Shown here: piece by piece, positions 19,475 to 30,064 of the stretch | Numbering within the stretch: position 1 is the first letter of the stretch | Layout: every line of letters starts with the position of its first letter | Source of the DNA: Flavobacteriales bacterium | GTDB taxonomy: Bacteria > Bacteroidota > Bacteroidia > Flavobacteriales > Flavobacteriaceae | Direction: 5' to 3' | NCBI GenBank assembly: GCA_024229195.1 | Contig: JAAESS010000081.1 | Coordinates: 1-44,931 of the forward strand | Length of the DNA: 44,931 nucleotides | Translations under genes and position numbers: made by a program | Notes under the pieces: model-generated | What the model saw: only the letters and a program-made list of their open reading frames with translations | Told to the model about the DNA's origin: nothing | Databases searched by the model: none

Positions 19475-19708
19475 ATGCCGATTAAAAGTTACCTCGTACG
19501 TCCTCATGACGGCAAATTTTCTGAACTTCTTAATGAATTATCTCAATTTCAAGGCTGTGATATTATCCCTTCTACAAATCAAGAGGTTGCCGTTCTGGTA
19601 ACAGATACTCAGGATGAAATTGAAGACAATAAACTTCTTTCGCAGATCAATGCGATTGAGAGTTTAAAGATGCTATCTATGGTTTCTGGTTTTGATGTAG
19701 ATTCTTAA
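19475..19708 (+). CDS. napD: NapD-like chaperone of periplasmic nitrate reductase
   Basis: 77 aa; MPIKSYLVRP...GCDIIPSTNQEVAVLVTDT..; directly precedes napA. Confidence 0.78.
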   Translation: MPIKSYLVRPHDGKFSELLNELSQFQGCDIIPSTNQEVAVLVTDTQDEIEDNKLLSQINAIESLKMLSMVSGFDVDS

Positions 19709-19724
19709 TAATTATAATATAAGT

Positions 19725-22052
19725 ATGATTAAAAAAGTAACAAGTAGAAGAGCGTTTTTAAAAAAAATGGCGGCAGCTTCAGCGATGACAGCGGCAGCTT
19801 CATTTTTTCCGGGAATCGTTTTCGCAGCAGAGCAAATTGAAAATGCAGAATCATTCGGTGACCTCACCTGGAACAAAGCACCTTGCCGATTCTGTGGCGT
19901 TGGTTGTGGCGTCTTAATAGGAATGGAAAATAATAAAGCCGTTGCTGTTAAAGGTGATCCAAAATCTTCTGTAAATAAAGGATTGTGCTGTGTTAAGGGA
20001 TATCACCAAACCATCTGTATGTATGCAGAAGACAGATTGAAAAAAGCTTTGGTCAAGAAAAATGGAGTTTATGTGGAAACCTCAATGGAAGAAGCTCTTG
20101 ATCTTGTTGCTTCTAAAATGAGTGAAACGATCGAATTACATGGTAAAGATGCAGTAGCCATGTATACCTCCGGACAATCTACAATCCCTGAAGGCTATGT
20201 AGCCTCAAAATTCATGAAAGGGGCCATAGGTACCAATAATTTAGATTGTAATGCCAGATTGTGTATGGCCAGCGCCGTAACAGGATTCCTCACATCTTTT
20301 GGAGCAGACGAACCTATGGGATGTTATGATGATATTGATGAAGCAGATACCTTTATCACTTGGGGAAACAATATGGCTGAAATGCATCCTGTGCTATTCT
20401 CAAGAATGTTGGACCAACAACTTAAGAGAGGTGCTCAGATAATTGATTTTGCGACCAGGACTACCAGATCTAGTACAGCATCAGATCGATCTATTTTATT
20501 TCATCCACAAACTGATCTTGCCGTGGCTAACGCTATAGCCTATGAGATCATCAATAATGGCTGGGTGAATAAAAAATTCGTTGAAGATCATTGTAGTTTT
20601 AACAAAGGACTCACTAATATAGGTTATGGAACGGAAGATAAATTCAATTTTACTGATAAACCGGAAAAAATAGATTTTGAAGCCTATAAGGAATTTTTAA
20701 AAGACTATAGTCCTGAAAAAGTATCAGGTATGTCTGGAGTTTCGGTGAAGGATATTAAATTTTTAGCTAGTCTTTATGGCGATCCAAACAAAAAGGTCGT
20801 CTCATTCTGGTGTATGGGAGTCAACCAGCACACTCGTGGTACATGGATGAATAATCTTATCTACAATATCCACCTGCTGACTGGTAAAATTTCACAACCG
20901 GGTAACGGACCATTTTCACTAACCGGTCAACCAAGTGCATGCGGAACCGCCAGAGAAGTTGGAACTTTTACACACAAACTTCCTAAAGGTGTGGTGATGA
21001 ATGAGAAAAATCGAGAATTTGCTGCAAAAATTTGGAAGGTTCCTGTGGAAAGAATTCCTGCAAAACCGACCTATCACGCTACAGAAATGTTCCGAGCGCT
21101 AGACAGAGGAGATATCAAGTTTCTCTGGACGCAAGTGACCAATCCTTTGGTATCATTACCAAATGTTGGACGATTTACGAAAGGTGCAGAAAAAGAAGAT
21201 CGATTTATTGTAGTTTCTGATGTATTCCCAACACCTACTTCTGATGTTGCTGATGTAATCCTACCGGCTGCTTGGCATATAGAAAAAAGCGGAATGTATG
21301 GAAATTCTGAGAGAAGAACCCAACATTGGAACAAAATGGTTGATCCTCCAGGAGAAGCGATGCCAGATGCATGGCAAACAATTCAGGTTGCCAAAAGAAT
21401 GGGATTTGGAGACCTCTTCCCCTACTCTGAAGAAAATCATGAAGAGGAAATATTCAATGAATACCGACAATTTCATGAAGGTAAAAAACATGGAATGGCC
21501 CCATTAGAGGTCCTGAAAGAAAAATCAGGTGCCATATGGCCTTTTGTTGATGGAAAGGAAACAAAATGGAGATATAACGCTACCTATGATCCTGCCTGTG
21601 AAAATGGAAAGCAGTTTCATTTTTATGGTAAACCGGATGGTCGAGCTATCATTTGGCAAAGACCCTATGAACCGGCTGCTGAATCGCCTGACAATGAATA
21701 TCCGTTCTGGCTCAATACCGGAAGGGTAATAGAACACTGGCATACTGGTTCAATGACAAGGCGAATACCTGTTTTACATCAAGCTGTACCCAATGCCTAT
21801 GTTGAGTTACATCCTGATGATGCAGCTGCCTATTCTATAAGTAATGGTGAAAAAGTAAAGGTCATATCGAGAAGAGGAACCACAGTGCTTCCGGCTTCTA
21901 TCAATGAAAGAGGCCTCCCAACTAAGGGTCAGGTATTTGTGCCATTTTTCGATGAAAATATGATGATCAATGATACTACTTTAGATGCATTTTGTCCTAT
22001 TTCTAAAGAGCCTGATTATAAAAAATGTGCCGTTAGAATTGAAAAAGTCTAA
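19725..22052 (+). CDS. napA: Periplasmic nitrate reductase catalytic subunit (Mo-bisMGD)
   Basis: 775 aa; Tat signal RRAFLKKMAAASAMTAAASFFPGIVFA; CRFCGVGCGV...GLCCVKG 4Fe-4S; DCNARLCMASAVTGFLTSFG Mo-Cys region. Confidence 0.95.
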   Translation: MIKKVTSRRAFLKKMAAASAMTAAASFFPGIVFAAEQIENAESFGDLTWNKAPCRFCGVGCGVLIGMENNKAVAVKGDPKSSVNKGLCCVKGYHQTICMYAEDRLKKALVKKNGVYVETSMEEALDLVASKMSETIELHGKDAVAMYTSGQSTIPEGYVASKFMKGAIGTNNLDCNARLCMASAVTGFLTSFGADEPMGCYDDIDEADTFITWGNNMAEMHPVLFSRMLDQQLKRGAQIIDFATRTTRSSTASDRSILFHPQTDLAVANAIAYEIINNGWVNKKFVEDHCSFNKGLTNIGYGTEDKFNFTDKPEKIDFEAYKEFLKDYSPEKVSGMSGVSVKDIKFLASLYGDPNKKVVSFWCMGVNQHTRGTWMNNLIYNIHLLTGKISQPGNGPFSLTGQPSACGTAREVGTFTHKLPKGVVMNEKNREFAAKIWKVPVERIPAKPTYHATEMFRALDRGDIKFLWTQVTNPLVSLPNVGRFTKGAEKEDRFIVVSDVFPTPTSDVADVILPAAWHIEKSGMYGNSERRTQHWNKMVDPPGEAMPDAWQTIQVAKRMGFGDLFPYSEENHEEEIFNEYRQFHEGKKHGMAPLEVLKEKSGAIWPFVDGKETKWRYNATYDPACENGKQFHFYGKPDGRAIIWQRPYEPAAESPDNEYPFWLNTGRVIEHWHTGSMTRRIPVLHQAVPNAYVELHPDDAAAYSISNGEKVKVISRRGTTVLPASINERGLPTKGQVFVPFFDENMMINDTTLDAFCPISKEPDYKKCAVRIEKV

Positions 22053-22062
22053 GAATTAAATT

Positions 22063-22740
22063 ATGAAAAGACTGTTTATCATATTTTTGTTCGTTTTACT
22101 CCTTGGAGCCACCATTGGAGTGTGGAGCTACAGCTATTTTGAATCTCTTGAAGAAGCAACTGTTGAGACTACTAGAATTAGAGAATTTTCATCTATTCCC
22201 TCTGAATCAGGTATGTTTGACAGGTCCGGTTTTGCCATGGAATATGCTATAATGCCTCTTGATGAAGCATATCAAAGGAATTTAAAAAGTTATTACGACA
22301 ACAGGGCATTTCACGGTGCCCCTCCTACCATTCCTCATCAAATTGAAGAAGTAGGAATAGGGTCAAAAGACTGTCTGAAATGTCATGAAAATGGTGGATT
22401 TGTAGATCAGTTCAAAGCCTATACACCTGTCACACCGCATCCAGATAAATCTAATTGTGTTCAGTGCCATGTGCAAGTAAAATCTAAATCATTTTTTGTG
22501 CCTTCCGGGTGGGTGAGAAATAGCAGCCCTAAAACTGGAAATCAGGCACTTCAGGGAAGTCCGCCAACAATTCCTCATTCATTACAATTAAGAGAAAATT
22601 GTTTGTCATGTCATGCAGGGCCTAGCGCTGTCAAGGAGATCCGAACAACGCATCCGAACAGGGTAAATTGCAGACAGTGTCATGTAGTCAATGAGAAAAA
22701 GACTATCGATATCGGAACATTTAAAAGAGAAATAAAATAA
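22063..22740 (+). CDS. napB: NapB-type c-type cytochrome, tetraheme by internal duplication
   Basis: 225 aa; four CxxCH motifs (CLKCH, CVQCH, CLSCH, CRQCH); two copies of PPTIPH...CLxCH...HP...NCxQCHV. Confidence 0.82.
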   Translation: MKRLFIIFLFVLLLGATIGVWSYSYFESLEEATVETTRIREFSSIPSESGMFDRSGFAMEYAIMPLDEAYQRNLKSYYDNRAFHGAPPTIPHQIEEVGIGSKDCLKCHENGGFVDQFKAYTPVTPHPDKSNCVQCHVQVKSKSFFVPSGWVRNSSPKTGNQALQGSPPTIPHSLQLRENCLSCHAGPSAVKEIRTTHPNRVNCRQCHVVNEKKTIDIGTFKREIK

Positions 22741-22748
22741 TAAAACAT

Positions 22749-23372
22749 ATGCTTAGTAGTTCGCAAATTAAAATATTGACTATTACCATATTGGTTTTGA
22801 TCTCTTCCTGTAAAGGAAAGGAACATGAATACCATAATCTGATGCATAAGATTGAAGCAGAAAGTGTTTCTTATGTCAGAGACAGTATTCAAAATCAAAA
22901 CTTATTCGACGTCAATGATTTGGTAGCAATCGATGAAAATGATATCCATTTCTACATTCAGGAACGCAAGTCCAATATCCAATCTTATGCTTGCAGTGAA
23001 TGTCATAATAAACCCGTTGAACAATTGCACAAGGAGGGCTTAGGAAAGAAAGCACACTGGGATATCACCATCAAACATGCAGATACCAAAACAATGAGTT
23101 GTCTTTCTTGCCATAATTCGCAGAACATGAACAACCTAAAAAGTATTACCGGTGACCCTATTGATTTTAATAAAAGTTACAAGTTGTGCAGTCAGTGCCA
23201 TAATAGTCAGGTAAAAGATTGGGTTGGAGGTGCACATGGTAAAAATATCAGTGGTTGGAAAAGTGCAAGAGTATCAAAATTATGTGTTGAATGTCATAAT
23301 CCGCATCAACCTCAAATCGCCAAAAGATGGCCATCGAGATATAATGCTACGATGGTTAATGAACGTAAATAA
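22749..23372 (+). CDS. Tetraheme c-type cytochrome, putative lipoprotein
   Basis: 207 aa; four CxxCH motifs (CSECH, CLSCH, CSQCH, CVECH); N-terminal ILVLISSC lipobox-like. Confidence 0.82.
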   Translation: MLSSSQIKILTITILVLISSCKGKEHEYHNLMHKIEAESVSYVRDSIQNQNLFDVNDLVAIDENDIHFYIQERKSNIQSYACSECHNKPVEQLHKEGLGKKAHWDITIKHADTKTMSCLSCHNSQNMNNLKSITGDPIDFNKSYKLCSQCHNSQVKDWVGGAHGKNISGWKSARVSKLCVECHNPHQPQIAKRWPSRYNATMVNERK

Positions 23373-23386
23373 ACAGGCTTAAAAGT

Positions 23387-24439
23387 ATGATAAACAAGAG
23401 TATAAAGAAGTTTTTTACATTAGACTTAGGGCAAAAAAATGAGAAGAAATGTGGCTGTTCCGGTCAATCTTGTGATAGTACCCCTTCAAAACCAAAAGAT
23501 GGCTACGACCAGGTTTTTGATGTAAATATGAATAGAAGACAAGCCTTTAGAAAACTTACGGCTGGTCTTTTGATAGGCGCAGGTGCAGCGAATGCATCAT
23601 GCTCTGTCGCAGCAGATGACAACCATAAAGAAAAATCTGAAATAGAATGGGAAGAGTATTTTAAAGGGAATTATAAACTGATGTCTGAAGATGAAAAAGA
23701 CAATACTGTTGACAGACTTGTAAGATCTTATGAGTTACGAACCGGTAAAAAAATAAATATTTCATCAAAAGACGCCAATCCTGATGTTTTATTTGGTTAC
23801 GCATTTAATATCTCAAAATGTCAGGGATATATGGATTGTGTCAACGCCTGTGTCAAAGAAAATAATCAAGACAGAAACTCTGAAATGCAGTACATCCGAA
23901 TTCATGAAATGAATGATGGACAAGGACTCAATTTTACTGAAGCAGATGACACTTATTATCATGAAGTTCCTGCCGCAGGTCACTTTTATATGGGTACCCA
24001 GTGTTACCACTGTGATAATCCGCCTTGTATAGAAGTTTGTCCTGTTGAAGCTACATGGAAAGAAAAAGATGGTTTAGTTGTTATTGATTATGACTGGTGT
24101 ATCGGATGCCGCTATTGTATGGCAGCCTGCCCTTATGACGGAAGAAGATTCAATTGGACTACTCCGGAAGTTCCTGAAGAGGAAGTCAATAAAAATCAGC
24201 ATTATTTAGGAAATAGACTCAGAAAAAAAGGTGTGATGGAAAAATGCACTTTTTGTATTCAGCGAAGTAGAAATGGTCAGAATCCGGCATGTGTCGATGC
24301 CTGTCCTACAGGCGCAAGAATCTTTGGTAACCTACTCGATCCGGAAAGTGAAATCAGGTGGGTTTTGGCCAATAAAAAAGTTTTCAGACTTAAAGAAGAT
24401 TTGGGAACCGAGCCTAAATTTTGGTATTATATGGATTAA
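23387..24439 (+). CDS. 4Fe-4S ferredoxin electron-transfer subunit (NrfC/HybA/DmsB-like)
   Basis: 350 aa; CQGYMDCVNACVKEN, CYHCDNPPCIEVCPVEA, CIGCRYCMAACPYDGRRF, CTFCIQRSRNGQNPACVDACPTGA; internal twin-arginine NRRQAFRKL. Confidence 0.9.
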   Translation: MINKSIKKFFTLDLGQKNEKKCGCSGQSCDSTPSKPKDGYDQVFDVNMNRRQAFRKLTAGLLIGAGAANASCSVAADDNHKEKSEIEWEEYFKGNYKLMSEDEKDNTVDRLVRSYELRTGKKINISSKDANPDVLFGYAFNISKCQGYMDCVNACVKENNQDRNSEMQYIRIHEMNDGQGLNFTEADDTYYHEVPAAGHFYMGTQCYHCDNPPCIEVCPVEATWKEKDGLVVIDYDWCIGCRYCMAACPYDGRRFNWTTPEVPEEEVNKNQHYLGNRLRKKGVMEKCTFCIQRSRNGQNPACVDACPTGARIFGNLLDPESEIRWVLANKKVFRLKEDLGTEPKFWYYMD

Positions 24440-24457: not shown

Positions 24458-25684
24458 ATGAAGGTATTTAAAAAATTAGTCAAAGATAGCATCGTTTACT
24501 CTACTCATGGAAACGTTTATTACCATATTTGGATGGCAGTTCTTACAGTTCTGATGCTGGTTGGGATGTTTTGTTATTTTATGCAACTTGATCAGGGACT
24601 GAGTGTTACAGGAATGAATGATCGTGTAAGTTGGGGTCTCTACATTTCAAATTTTACATTTCTTGTGGGAGTAGCTGCAGCAGCCGTAATGCTCGTGCTT
24701 CCAACATATATTTTACACGATATTGACTTTAAACAAGCAGTCTTAATTGGAGAAGGTCTTGCTGTTGCCGCTCTTGTGATGTGTCTGGCTTTTGTTGTGG
24801 CCGATATGGGAGGACCCGCACGTCTCTGGCATATTATTCCATTTATTGGGGTTTTTAATTTCCCAAATTCTATGCTGACCTGGGATGTATTGGTATTGAA
24901 CGGGTATCTGTTTATTAACTTATCAATCCCGTTCTATATACTCTATCAAAGATATCAGGGAAAAACTCCAAATCCGAAAATTTATATTCCTGGTGTGATC
25001 ATTTCTGTTTTCTGGGCTTTTGCAATTCACTTGGTTACCGCGTTTTTATACCAAGGTCTGCAGGCACGACCGTTTTGGAATAATGCCCTATTAGGTCCTA
25101 AATTTTTAGCGTCTGCCTTTGCCGCAGGACCCTCTCTGATCATTATCGCCTTAGCCGTGATCCGAAAATTTACACAATTTCAAATAGAAGATAAAACGAT
25201 CAAAAAAATCGCTATGGTGGTCACTGTGGCCGCTCAGATCAATTTGATTATGCTTATTTCAGAATTGTTTAAAGAATTCTATGCACCAACCCACCACAGT
25301 GAAAGTGCCTATTATTTATATTTTGGATTACATGAAAAATCAAAACTTGTACCATGGATCTGGACAGCGATTTCTATGAATGTAATTGCGACGGTGACAC
25401 TCACATTTCATAAGTTGAGAAATAACCTGACAATATTATACATCGCCTGTGGTTTGTTATTTTTAGCCATATGGATTGAAAAAGGCTTTGGACTGATTGT
25501 TCCTGGTTTTATTCCCGGTCCCTGGGGAAAAATTGCTGAATATTTTCCGACTATGGTTGAAGTTGGAGTTACAATAGGAATATGGGCAATGGGGGCTTTT
25601 ATTTTTTCAATTTTGGCCAGAACAGGAATTGCCATAGAAATGGGCTTACTCACTTTTAAGAAATCATCTGCCAAGGATGATTAA
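24458..25684 (+). CDS. nrfD: NrfD/PsrC-family membrane quinone-interacting subunit
   Basis: 408 aa multi-TM; SWGLYISNFTFLVGVAAAAVML, DMGGPARLWHII..FNFPNSMLTWDVLVLNGYL motifs. Confidence 0.9.
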   Translation: MKVFKKLVKDSIVYSTHGNVYYHIWMAVLTVLMLVGMFCYFMQLDQGLSVTGMNDRVSWGLYISNFTFLVGVAAAAVMLVLPTYILHDIDFKQAVLIGEGLAVAALVMCLAFVVADMGGPARLWHIIPFIGVFNFPNSMLTWDVLVLNGYLFINLSIPFYILYQRYQGKTPNPKIYIPGVIISVFWAFAIHLVTAFLYQGLQARPFWNNALLGPKFLASAFAAGPSLIIIALAVIRKFTQFQIEDKTIKKIAMVVTVAAQINLIMLISELFKEFYAPTHHSESAYYLYFGLHEKSKLVPWIWTAISMNVIATVTLTFHKLRNNLTILYIACGLLFLAIWIEKGFGLIVPGFIPGPWGKIAEYFPTMVEVGVTIGIWAMGAFIFSILARTGIAIEMGLLTFKKSSAKDD

Positions 25685-25805: not shown

Positions 25806-26210
25806 ATGATTTCAAAAAAAACGAAATATGGTTTAAAAGCATTGGCCTATATTGCTCGTAGTAGTGATCAAATGATTCCAATAGCTCAAATCGCAGAGCA
25901 TGAAAACATACCTCATAAATTTTTAGAAAGTATTTTGTTGCTCATGAGAAAATCGGGATTCCTTGGTTCAAAAAAGGGGAAAGGCGGTGGCTATTACCTA
26001 CTCAAAGAAGCTTCAGAAATTTACATGACTGATGTAATGCGCATCCTCGAAGGCCCTATTGCTCCGGTGGCTTGTGTGAGTCTAAATTATTATGAAAAGT
26101 GTGATGATTGTGACGACGAAACCACTTGCAGTCTAAATAAATTAATGATTCAGGTTCGTGATGCCAACCTGCATGTCCTCCGAAATACTACCTTAGAGGA
26201 TCTTAAATAA
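25806..26210 (+). CDS. Rrf2 family transcriptional regulator
   Basis: 134 aa; MISKKTKYGLKALAYIARSSDQ...PIAQIAEHENIPHKFLESILLLMRKSGFLGSKKGKGGGYYL; Cys-rich C-terminal CVSLNYYEKCDDCDDETTC. Confidence 0.93.
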   Translation: MISKKTKYGLKALAYIARSSDQMIPIAQIAEHENIPHKFLESILLLMRKSGFLGSKKGKGGGYYLLKEASEIYMTDVMRILEGPIAPVACVSLNYYEKCDDCDDETTCSLNKLMIQVRDANLHVLRNTTLEDLK

Positions 26211-26232
26211 TTCAATTTTAACATTTCAAAAC

Positions 26233-26262
26233 TTTGCTAATTCAATATTTTATTTACATTTG
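26233..26262 (+). promoter_or_regulatory. Bacteroidota-type promoter for the cys operon: TTTG-N18-TACATTTG
   Basis: -33 TTTG at 26233-26236 and -7 TACATTTG at 26255-26262. Confidence 0.7.
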
Positions 26263-26269
26263 CATTATT

Positions 26270-26290
26270 ATCCTAGTTAACCGATAGGAT
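26270..26290. promoter_or_regulatory. Perfect inverted repeat ATCCTA-N9-TAGGAT, candidate operator
   Basis: atcctagttaaccgataggat located just downstream of the -7 box, over the predicted transcription start. Confidence 0.6.
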
Positions 26291-26313
26291 TATATGGTTA
26301 TATAAAATTTAAT

Positions 26314-26547
26314 ATGTTAGTTGATAAACTCTATAAAATAAGTTCCGACAGTAATGACTCTCACAGTAAAAGCATGTTGAAAGCGATTAGTTGGCGAATT
26401 ATTGGAACAATTGATACCATTGTGATCTCGTGGTTTATGACCGGAACACTGAGTCTTGCCCTCACCATTGGATCTATTGAGGTCTTTACAAAGTTTTTCC
26501 TCTACTATGGTCATGAGAGAATTTGGAATCTGATAAAATGGAAGTAA
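26314..26547 (+). CDS. DUF2061 domain-containing small membrane protein
   Basis: 77 aa; SMLKAISWRIIGTIDTIVISWFMTG...EVFTKFFLYYGHERIW. Confidence 0.87.
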   Translation: MLVDKLYKISSDSNDSHSKSMLKAISWRIIGTIDTIVISWFMTGTLSLALTIGSIEVFTKFFLYYGHERIWNLIKWK

Positions 26548-26548
26548 A

Positions 26549-27178
26549 ATGAAATACAATAGTGCACATACCCTTATCGCCAAAGCGAATGAATTATTGA
26601 AGGATAAAACTCCTTCAGAAATTATTGAGTGGGCTCTGGAACAATCCAACAGCCCTATTCTTACCACTAATTTTGGACCCTTTTCAGCAAGTTTGGTGCA
26701 CGCAGTTTCTCAGGTAAAGAATGATATTAATGTGATTTGGTGTGATACAGGATATAATACTCCCCAAACATATAGATATGCTCATGAATTAATTCAAAGA
26801 TTTGATTTGAACATGCATGTCTATACGCCGAGATCGACAGTAGGTTTCAGAGACGTTATCAAAGGAATTCCTCAAATAGATACGCAAGAACACAAAGAAT
26901 TTACAGAAGAAGTAAAACTTGAACCGTTTAGAAGAGCTCTGGCAGAACATCAACCCGATGTCTGGTTTACCAATCTCCGCGCTGATCAAAGTGAATTCAG
27001 AAAGAGTCTTGATATCATCCATATAGACAAACAGGGAATTCTAAAAGTAAGTCCTTTTTTCTATTATTCAGAATTCGAAATGGAGATATATCTCGAGAGA
27101 TTTGCACTTCCAAATGAAAAAAAATACTACGATCCCACAAAAGTGCTAGCCAATAGAGAGTGTGGACTACACTTATAA
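26549..27178 (+). CDS. cysH: Phosphoadenosine phosphosulfate (PAPS) reductase family protein
   Basis: 209 aa; VIWCDTGYNTPQTYR, WFTNLRADQSEFR, C-terminal ECGLH catalytic Cys; no CC...CxxC 4Fe-4S motif. Confidence 0.9.
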   Translation: MKYNSAHTLIAKANELLKDKTPSEIIEWALEQSNSPILTTNFGPFSASLVHAVSQVKNDINVIWCDTGYNTPQTYRYAHELIQRFDLNMHVYTPRSTVGFRDVIKGIPQIDTQEHKEFTEEVKLEPFRRALAEHQPDVWFTNLRADQSEFRKSLDIIHIDKQGILKVSPFFYYSEFEMEIYLERFALPNEKKYYDPTKVLANRECGLHL

Positions 27179-27204
27179 ATTACATCATCAAAAAAAAAAA
27201 TAGA

Positions 27205-29310
27205 ATGTTAAGTTTCAGAACTGAAATAGAAAATCCACTTGTTCAAAAAGACATAATTGACTTAGAGCAAAAGATCCACTTACACAAAAATGGTAAAATT
27301 GATGAAGATGGTTTTAGGTCACTTCGTCTGGCGCGAGGCATCTATGGCCAGAGACAAGAAGGTGTTCAGATGATCAGGATAAAGCTACCTTTCGGAAAAT
27401 TGAACTCTGAGCAGCTTCATAGAATTGCAGATGTCTCAGATGAATATTCCACAGGACGATTGCATATCACGACAAGACAGGATATTCAAATCCATTATGT
27501 AAGCCTCGATCGCACACCAGAACTTTGGGCTGAACTTGAGAAAAGTGATATTACCCTTAGAGAAGCATGCGGTAATGCCGTTCGAAATATAACTGCCTCT
27601 GAAACGGCTGGGATTGACCCTGAAGAACCATTTGATGTATCTGCTTATGCAGATGCAGTTTTCAAATTCTTTTTACGAAATCCTATTTGTCAGGAACTCG
27701 GTAGAAAATTTAAGATTTCTTTTTCCTCGAGCGACCAGGATAGTGCCCTAAGTTTTATACATGATCTTGGATTTATTGCTAAACTTAAAATTACAGATGG
27801 AATTGAGAAGAAAGGCTTTAAGGTAATGATCGCCGGGGGTCTTGGCGCTCAACCCAGACAGGCCGATGTCTTATTTGATTTTCTTGAAACCGATAAAATC
27901 ATTCCTTTTATTGAGAGCAGCCTCCGAGTCTTCGATAGATACGGTGAGAGAAACAGACGCGCCAAAGCCCGATTAAAACATTTGATCCAAAATATAGGGC
28001 TTGATCAATTCATAAGATACGTTCAGGAGGAAAAAAGAGCATTATCAGCTCAAAGTATAAAGATCGATATACCGGTATCTTCACAGAAAAATGAAGAAAT
28101 CAGGGAATTTCCCAAAGCTCAAATTAAGGATGAATTAGCTTATACAAACTGGAAAAAAAGTAATGTTTACACCCAAAAGCAACAGGGTTATTTTGCCATT
28201 GGCATCAAAGTCAGGCTTGGTGATTTTTATACTGACAAAGCCAGAATATTGGCAGATTTGATCAGAGATTACGCTCAAGACGAATTAAGACTGACCATAA
28301 GTCAGGGAATTTTGATCCGAGGTGTTCAGGAAGCGCTCTTACCTTTTTTCTACCAAAAATTAAATGAATTGGGTTTTGCAGATATTGGATATGGTAGCAC
28401 ATTAGATATTACATCTTGTCCCGGAACTGACACCTGTAATCTTGGAATCGCAAGTAGTACAGGGCTGGCAAGAGAATTGGAGAATACCTTGAGAAATGAA
28501 TTTCCTGCCTATGCTTACAATAAAGATATTTCGATTAAACTAAGTGGATGTATGAATGCTTGCGGGCAGCACAGTATTGCTCAAATTGGTTTTTATGGGA
28601 TGTCAATCAAAAAGGGAGCGCTTGTTATTCCTGCTTTTCAAGTGTTATTAGGAGGAGGAACCCTTGGAAATGGAAAAGGAAGATTCGCTGATAAAGTCAT
28701 TAAAATTCCCAGTAAAAAGGGTCCAGAGGCTTTAAGGCTCATTATTCATGATTATGAAGACAATAAAACTGATACCATGAGTTTTACTGACTATTATCTC
28801 GAAAAGGAAAAGGTTCATTTTTACAATTTACTTAAACCATTGGCTGACCTGTCTGAAGTGGACAAAGACATATTTATTGACTGGGGGCACAGTGAATCTT
28901 ATATCAAGGCTATTGGAGTTGGAGAATGTGCAGGTGTAGTCATAGATCTTGTCAGCACCCTCTTATTCGAAACCGAAGAGAAACTTGAAAATGCCAAACT
29001 AAGCCTTGAAGCAAAAAAATGGTCTGACAGTATTTACCACAGTTATGCTTCCATAATCAATACCGCCAAAGCTGTTTTGATTGGAGAGAATATAAAAACC
29101 AATACACAAGCCGGAATTGTGAAAGATTTTGACCAGTATTTTATTAAAAGTGGTTTGATCAATCTGGAGAGTAGCTTTAGCGAATTGATTTATCAGATCA
29201 AATCGAATAAGGCCGATGAAGCATTTTCAAAACAATATTTTAACGATGCACAAAAGTTCTACAAGCTTGTAGATAACCTAAGAACAAATGCCTTGAATAA
29301 TGAATCCTAA
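27205..29310 (+). CDS. Siroheme-dependent sulfite/nitrite reductase with HEPN-like C-terminal domain
   Basis: TGRLHITTRQDIQIHYV, CPGTDTCNLGIASS, LSGCMNACGQHSIAQIGFYG; C-terminal ~125 aa helical WSDSIYHSYASIINTAKAVL. ATG at 27205 preferred over GTG 27160. Confidence 0.9.
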   Translation: MLSFRTEIENPLVQKDIIDLEQKIHLHKNGKIDEDGFRSLRLARGIYGQRQEGVQMIRIKLPFGKLNSEQLHRIADVSDEYSTGRLHITTRQDIQIHYVSLDRTPELWAELEKSDITLREACGNAVRNITASETAGIDPEEPFDVSAYADAVFKFFLRNPICQELGRKFKISFSSSDQDSALSFIHDLGFIAKLKITDGIEKKGFKVMIAGGLGAQPRQADVLFDFLETDKIIPFIESSLRVFDRYGERNRRAKARLKHLIQNIGLDQFIRYVQEEKRALSAQSIKIDIPVSSQKNEEIREFPKAQIKDELAYTNWKKSNVYTQKQQGYFAIGIKVRLGDFYTDKARILADLIRDYAQDELRLTISQGILIRGVQEALLPFFYQKLNELGFADIGYGSTLDITSCPGTDTCNLGIASSTGLARELENTLRNEFPAYAYNKDISIKLSGCMNACGQHSIAQIGFYGMSIKKGALVIPAFQVLLGGGTLGNGKGRFADKVIKIPSKKGPEALRLIIHDYEDNKTDTMSFTDYYLEKEKVHFYNLLKPLADLSEVDKDIFIDWGHSESYIKAIGVGECAGVVIDLVSTLLFETEEKLENAKLSLEAKKWSDSIYHSYASIINTAKAVLIGENIKTNTQAGIVKDFDQYFIKSGLINLESSFSELIYQIKSNKADEAFSKQYFNDAQKFYKLVDNLRTNALNNES

Positions 29311-30064
29311 AGCGCAACTAACTCTGGTAGGTGCTGGTCCGGGTGATCCAGAACTACTCACTTTAAAAGGCTTAAATGCCCTAAAAAAAGCTGATGTAAT
29401 ATTATATGATGCCTTGGTAAATCCGATTCTTTTGGATCACGCACCAGAAGCCATAAAAATATTTGTTGGTAAAAGAAAAGGATTCCATCGCTATACTCAG
29501 GATGAGATCAATCATTTGATTGTAGAGCAAGCGTTTCTGAACGGTCATGTGATCAGATTAAAAGGAGGAGACCCTTTTGTATTTGGCCGAGGCTCAGAAG
29601 AACTGGATCATGCCGAAAATTTTGGTTTACCTACAGATATCATTCCTGGAATTTCTTCCAGTATAGCGGTTCCTGCGAGCATTGGTATTCCTCTTACAAA
29701 AAGAGGTGTATCCGAAAGTTTTTGGGTAATTACCGGCTGTAATTCCGACAGGCAATTGAGTTTAGATGTTTCCTTAGCAGCCCAATCTTCCGCAACGGTA
29801 GTCATCTTAATGGGTATGCACAAACTCGACCAGATTACGGGCATTTTTAAAGAATTAGGTAAAGGAGAAACTCCTGCTGCAGTGATACAAAACGGTACGA
29901 TGAAGAGTCAAAAAAGTGGGATTGGAACTATTAACAACATTACAGAAATTGTTAAATCAAATAATTTATCATCTCCTGCTATTATCATACTTGGAGATGT
30001 TGTGTCCGAAGCGAATAGCACAATGGAATTAAGTCAAAAAATAGAAATGTATCTCGCCTCTTAG
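29300..30064 (+). CDS. cobA: Uroporphyrinogen-III C-methyltransferase
   Basis: 254 aa; LVGAGPGDPELLTLKGLNAL, VRLKGGDPFVFGRG-type motif; overlaps preceding CDS by 11 bp. Confidence 0.95.
   Translation: MNPKAQLTLVGAGPGDPELLTLKGLNALKKADVILYDALVNPILLDHAPEAIKIFVGKRKGFHRYTQDEINHLIVEQAFLNGHVIRLKGGDPFVFGRGSEELDHAENFGLPTDIIPGISSSIAVPASIGIPLTKRGVSESFWVITGCNSDRQLSLDVSLAAQSSATVVILMGMHKLDQITGIFKELGKGETPAAVIQNGTMKSQKSGIGTINNITEIVKSNNLSSPAIIILGDVVSEANSTMELSQKIEMYLAS

Follow-up and report, generated by a model that had tools for sequence, protein, structure and literature searches.

Periplasmic nitrate reductase (Nap) is usually treated as being fed by NapC or by NapGH. NapB is a diheme protein in the published account of Nap (PMC3475470), and in Nap systems without NapB, such as those of Desulfovibrio and Caldithrix, a tetraheme protein, NapM, stands in for it (PMC5317091). 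NrfD-like complexes have been reviewed as quinone-interacting and ion-translocating, and the term "nitrate reductase" does not occur in that review (PMC8076601). Here, a 44,931-nucleotide stretch of DNA (the window) from a Flavobacteriales bacterium (GCA_024229195.1, contig JAAESS010000081.1) was analysed, in which napA is followed by a gene encoding a NapB homologue with four heme-binding motifs.

This protein resembles canonical diheme NapB (PF03892; structures 1ogy, 3ml1 and 1jni) in its layout of PPxIPH, CxxCH, a conserved histidine and CxQCHV and in adjoining napA. It differs in that its two modules together hold four heme sites where the canonical protein has two, and in having a spacer of 5 rather than 18–20 residues ahead of each second CxxCH, and an N-terminal anchor that is probably uncleaved. 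Like NapM, it is a four-heme candidate donor to NapA, whereas NapM replaces NapB and clusters with NapGH (PMC5317091); the two are set apart here by description only. DsrMKJOP and other NrfD-type complexes (PMC8076601) share DsrO-like iron–sulfur and DsrP-like NrfD subunits and a multiheme cytochrome with the locus, but the module of the nap operon is linked to NapA and NapB. An initial sequence-only reading had proposed that this NapB arose by tandem duplication of the diheme module, and had named a tetraheme form already described as standard as an outcome that would count against this proposal. No published description of a tetraheme NapB was found in the literature searched, although most subscription journals lay outside its coverage and an earlier one is possible.

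Heme motifs and the probable N-terminal anchor

The gene and the parts of its product are as follows:
22063..22740, + strand: tetraheme NapB, 225 aa, two tandem diheme NapB modules and an N-terminal membrane anchor (CxxCH motifs, profile comparisons, conservation)
22063..22149, + strand: N-terminal hydrophobic helix, residues 1–29, predicted uncleaved anchor (AlphaFold; no A-x-A in relatives)
22288..22512, + strand: module 1, residues 76–150, with PPTIPH92, CLKCH108, PH126 and CVQCH136 (hhalign score against canonical NapB 73.3; Pfam NapB 7.4e-8)
22525..22737, + strand: module 2, residues 155–225, with PPTIPH172, CLSCH184, TH197 and CRQCH207 (hhalign score against canonical NapB 71.1 and against module 1 92; Pfam NapB 4e-4, sub-threshold)

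The open reading frame starts with ATG, its translation is identical to the peptide quoted in the sequence-only reading, and stop codons interrupt the complementary strand when read in this register. The translation contains exactly the four CxxCH motifs claimed in that reading (CLKCH 104–108, CVQCH 132–136, CLSCH 180–184 and CRQCH 203–207), and a count across relatives, which it had proposed as a check, found all four in 108 of 109 proteins. In the sole exception, L110:3885-4553, the last of the four heme sites reads CRQCN (CxxCN) rather than CRQCH. In a 33-row alignment, eight histidines (92, 108, 126, 136, 172, 184, 197 and 207) were invariant; four lie in the CxxCH motifs, and the other four, in PPxIPH and ahead of the second CxxCH of each module, are candidate distal ligands. 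By analogy with NapB structures (Brige 2002, as cited in PMC5114592), these eight residues are the presumed axial heme ligands. Heme attachment and histidine ligation are predictions.

The strongly hydrophobic N-terminus is followed by a conserved W-x-x-S-Y (W21, S24, Y25), and AlphaFold modelled residues 2–29 as one helix, with pLDDT values of 89–96 over residues 1–20. Beyond this helix, the model of the full protein (33 rows; mean pLDDT 41.8) was unusable, as was that of residues 57–225 (56 rows; mean pLDDT 48.6). An A-x-A site after the hydrophobic stretch was absent from 113 of 113 relatives, although this is a crude test, such a site being absent from 5 of 13 canonical NapBs as well. The helix is probably uncleaved, and the membrane topology is a prediction. 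The anchor, like the strict tie to an NrfD/DsrOP-type module described below, did not appear in the sequence-only reading.

Relationship and origin of the two modules

About 110 relatives were aligned, and the alignment was split at residues 76–150 and 155–225 to give module profiles. With hhalign, the modules matched each other with a score of 92 and 44% identity across 55 columns. Some similarity is expected between any pair of CxxCH proteins, and null scores were therefore obtained from 200 shuffles in which the CxxCH columns were fixed and all others shuffled; for module 1 against module 2, the null mean was 22.9 and the maximum 44. The canonical set comprised 13 proteins from Pseudomonadota and Campylobacterota (E. 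coli, Cupriavidus, Paracoccus, Cereibacter, Sulfuricurvum and others), all of them diheme. Against this profile, modules 1 and 2 scored 73.3 and 71.1, respectively, with null maxima of 35 and 37, and the operon's second tetraheme cytochrome, which served as negative control, scored only 21–27 against both modules. The whole protein matched Pfam NapB (PF03892) with 41.4 bits, above the gathering score of 25.1, and a PDB profile search ranked the three diheme NapB structures first (1ogy 2.7e-5, 3ml1 5e-4, 1jni 3.4e-3). The HHalign comparison suggested in the sequence-only reading therefore bears out its claim that each half repeats the NapB layout; a match of one half only, which it had regarded as telling against the claim, was not the outcome.

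It is very improbable that only module 1 is NapB and that the motif pattern of module 2, as a generic cytochrome segment with two hemes, arose by convergence. Module 1 alone matched Pfam NapB at 7.4e-8, while module 2 alone matched NapB (4e-4, below the family cut-off) and cytochrome c7 (3.8e-4) about equally, as convergence would allow. However, the profile score of module 2 to NapB is well above its null maximum, the control cytochrome stays at 21–27, and N-x-A, PPxIPH, CLxCH and HPxxxNCxQCH are common to both modules. Having four CxxCH motifs, the protein is homologous to NapB but carries the module twice and is not a canonical NapB. The doubling of the module and its conservation are demonstrated here, as is the gene order given below.

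The spacers bear on how the doubling came about. Between the presumed second distal histidine and the second CxxCH, 5 residues were found in both modules of 92 of the 93 proteins whose two modules were both recognised by a simple pattern, compared with 18–20 residues in the 13 canonical NapBs. This common 5-residue spacer argues for the duplication of one shortened module. Two other spacers are shorter in module 2 (7 and 12 residues) than in module 1 (12 and 17). In a tree of 51 modules (63 usable columns; root arbitrary and uninformative), all module-1 sequences formed one group (96/89), including those of Flammeovirga and of two genera of another family; canonical NapB formed another (92/85), and the module-2 group was weakly supported (67/4). 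The span of the module-1 group suggests that the doubling predates these families or was carried among them with the operon.

Two NapB genes of separate origin that became fused could account for the shorter spacers of module 2 and for the old split between the modules in the tree. We consider such a fusion improbable, given that the modules score higher against each other than either does against canonical NapB and that both carry the 5-residue spacer, which neither the 13 canonical NapBs nor the diheme NapB of Bacteroidota has. The unrooted three-group tree is also compatible with an ancestral tetraheme form from which diheme NapB lost one module; this is somewhat less probable again, since all 13 sampled NapBs are diheme, as are the NapBs of the three solved structures, and the shortened spacer is confined to the tetraheme form. 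The tandem duplication put forward in the sequence-only reading is thus well supported by the module-to-module score and the common spacer. A diheme NapB module that was already shortened would have been duplicated in tandem and in frame, either ahead of the divergence of the sampled Bacteroidota families or ahead of the operon's spread among them.

Operon context and distribution

On one strand, the gene order is napD-napA-napB, a second tetraheme cytochrome gene, a DsrO-like FeS gene and a DsrP-like NrfD gene. The neighbours of napB are:
19475..19708, + strand: napD-like chaperone ORF, 77 aa (Pfam NapD 1.8e-5, 25.2 bits, just below the 28-bit cut-off; a relative lies upstream in 80/80 loci with room)
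19725..22052, + strand: napA, periplasmic nitrate reductase catalytic subunit, 775 aa, with a SRRAFLKK Tat-type signal (NF010055 972 bits, cut-off 904; TIGR01706 931.7, cut-off 930.55)
22749..23372, + strand: second tetraheme cytochrome c and probable lipoprotein (ISSC), with no relation to the modules of NapB (four CxxCH in 111/112 loci; control scores 21–27)
23387..24439, + strand: periplasmic 4Fe-4S subunit, DsrO-like (NF045797 DsrO 195.6 bits, just below the cut-off of 200)
24458..25684, + strand: NrfD/DsrP-family integral membrane subunit, putatively for quinol oxidation (NF045798 DsrP 413.9 bits, cut-off 350; Pfam NrfD 1.3e-32)

NapA is 46% identical to that of E. coli. Where the neighbours of tetraheme napB could be examined, napA and the second cytochrome were present in 112/112 loci each, the FeS subunit in 111/111, NrfD in 82/82 and napD in 80/80; these loci come from two possibly overlapping collections and are not all independent species. 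The operon set also occurs in Flammeovirga, and the order from napA to NrfD recurs in four more genomes, of which three belong to other Flavobacteriales families. The second tetraheme cytochrome carries a conserved DWxGGAHGK...CVxCHNPHxP signature, and its own two halves resemble each other (score 43). Just 3' of the operon (25806-30064) lie genes for an Rrf2-family regulator, a cysH-like protein, a NirA/sulfite-reductase-like siroheme protein and a uroporphyrinogen methyltransferase.

In genomes of Bacteroidota and in plasmid records, tetraheme NapB was found in Flavobacteriaceae, other Flavobacteriales families and Flammeovirga. Among 151 sampled Flavobacteriaceae genomes, 32 gave a match, one of which was weak (E 2e-8) and was rejected because it lay in an octaheme protein of ~540 aa. 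The form was rarer in the rest of the phylum. In the class sample, NapA with 71% identity occurred in three more genomes; tetraheme napB was complete in two of these and cut by the contig end in the third, and plasmid records held tetraheme NapB only in Flammeovirga. Weak phylum-wide profile matches in genome G156 and the f17 genus were other multiheme proteins with many more CxxCH motifs, and a similar weak match occurred in G438. Distant NapA-like matches (41–42% identity) in G559 and G704, at loci L146:6466-9460 and L147:6589-9601 from two other Bacteroidota families, belonged to another molybdoenzyme group; in both, the gene is followed by one for a membrane protein that has four hemes and is NapC-like. 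In a Bacteroidota genome, L148:5985-10589 encodes three consecutive multiheme cytochromes, which carry 20, 28 and 9 CxxCH motifs.

The sole diheme NapB found in Bacteroidota was in the Flavobacteriales genome G825 (locus L156, G825:C203), directly after napH (340 bits). It shares with tetraheme NapB the bacterial order and the match to the NapB family (Pfam NapB and NCBIfam NF008609) but has two hemes and a long spacer, is a probable lipoprotein and adjoins napH. This genome represents a second type of Nap within Flavobacteriales, with a NapB that is probably lipid-anchored. In this sample, the heme number of NapB goes with the quinol module, the diheme side being one case on a single 4.1-kb contig.

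Proposed electron path and implications

In the host genome, no match to the NapC/NirT/NrfH family (PF03264) or NrfA and no NapH above the cut-off was found; the assembly is 90% complete, and the absence is accordingly soft. We favour, at a probability of about 0.75, the reading that a quinol dehydrogenase of the NrfD type supplies electrons to NapA through a membrane-tethered tetraheme NapB with a duplicated module, replacing NapC/NapGH. The uncleaved N-terminal helix would hold NapB at the membrane. The NrfD/DsrP-like membrane subunit would take up electrons from menaquinol, and these would travel via the DsrO-like iron–sulfur subunit and the neighbouring tetraheme lipoprotein to NapB, whose four hemes would relay them to the 4Fe-4S cluster of NapA; this route would stand in for NapC or NapGH. 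The order of electron flow, the quinone type and any ion translocation are inferred. The idea in the sequence-only reading that the duplicate extends the electron wire to NapA is plausible, in the form of a membrane-anchored four-heme relay tied to a DsrOP/NrfD-type module rather than to NapC/NapGH.

Module 2 could instead be a docking or storage domain off the electron path, with the neighbouring tetraheme cytochrome alone feeding module 1. It may serve docking, but both of its CxxCH motifs and two further histidines are invariant in the 33 aligned members, as expected if every heme is used, and we regard this alternative as unlikely. A more far-reaching and tentative proposal, to which we give less than even odds, is that Bacteroidota possess a separate membrane-bound quinol:nitrate oxidoreductase, in which NapA would be connected through eight c-type hemes (tetraheme NapB and the tetraheme lipoprotein) to a possibly ion-translocating DsrOP/NrfD module, with the NapB duplication as the enabling adaptation. 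If true, this Nap would be energy-conserving at the quinol-oxidation step.

One copy of tetraheme NapB was named "cytochrome c3 family protein", and annotation based on names can miss this form. With the heme number of NapB linked to the quinol module, the reason for the doubling becomes testable. A widespread group of marine Bacteroidota appears to combine a doubled, membrane-anchored NapB with a different quinol module, which suggests that nitrate respiration is wired differently in this group and may also differ in its energy yield.
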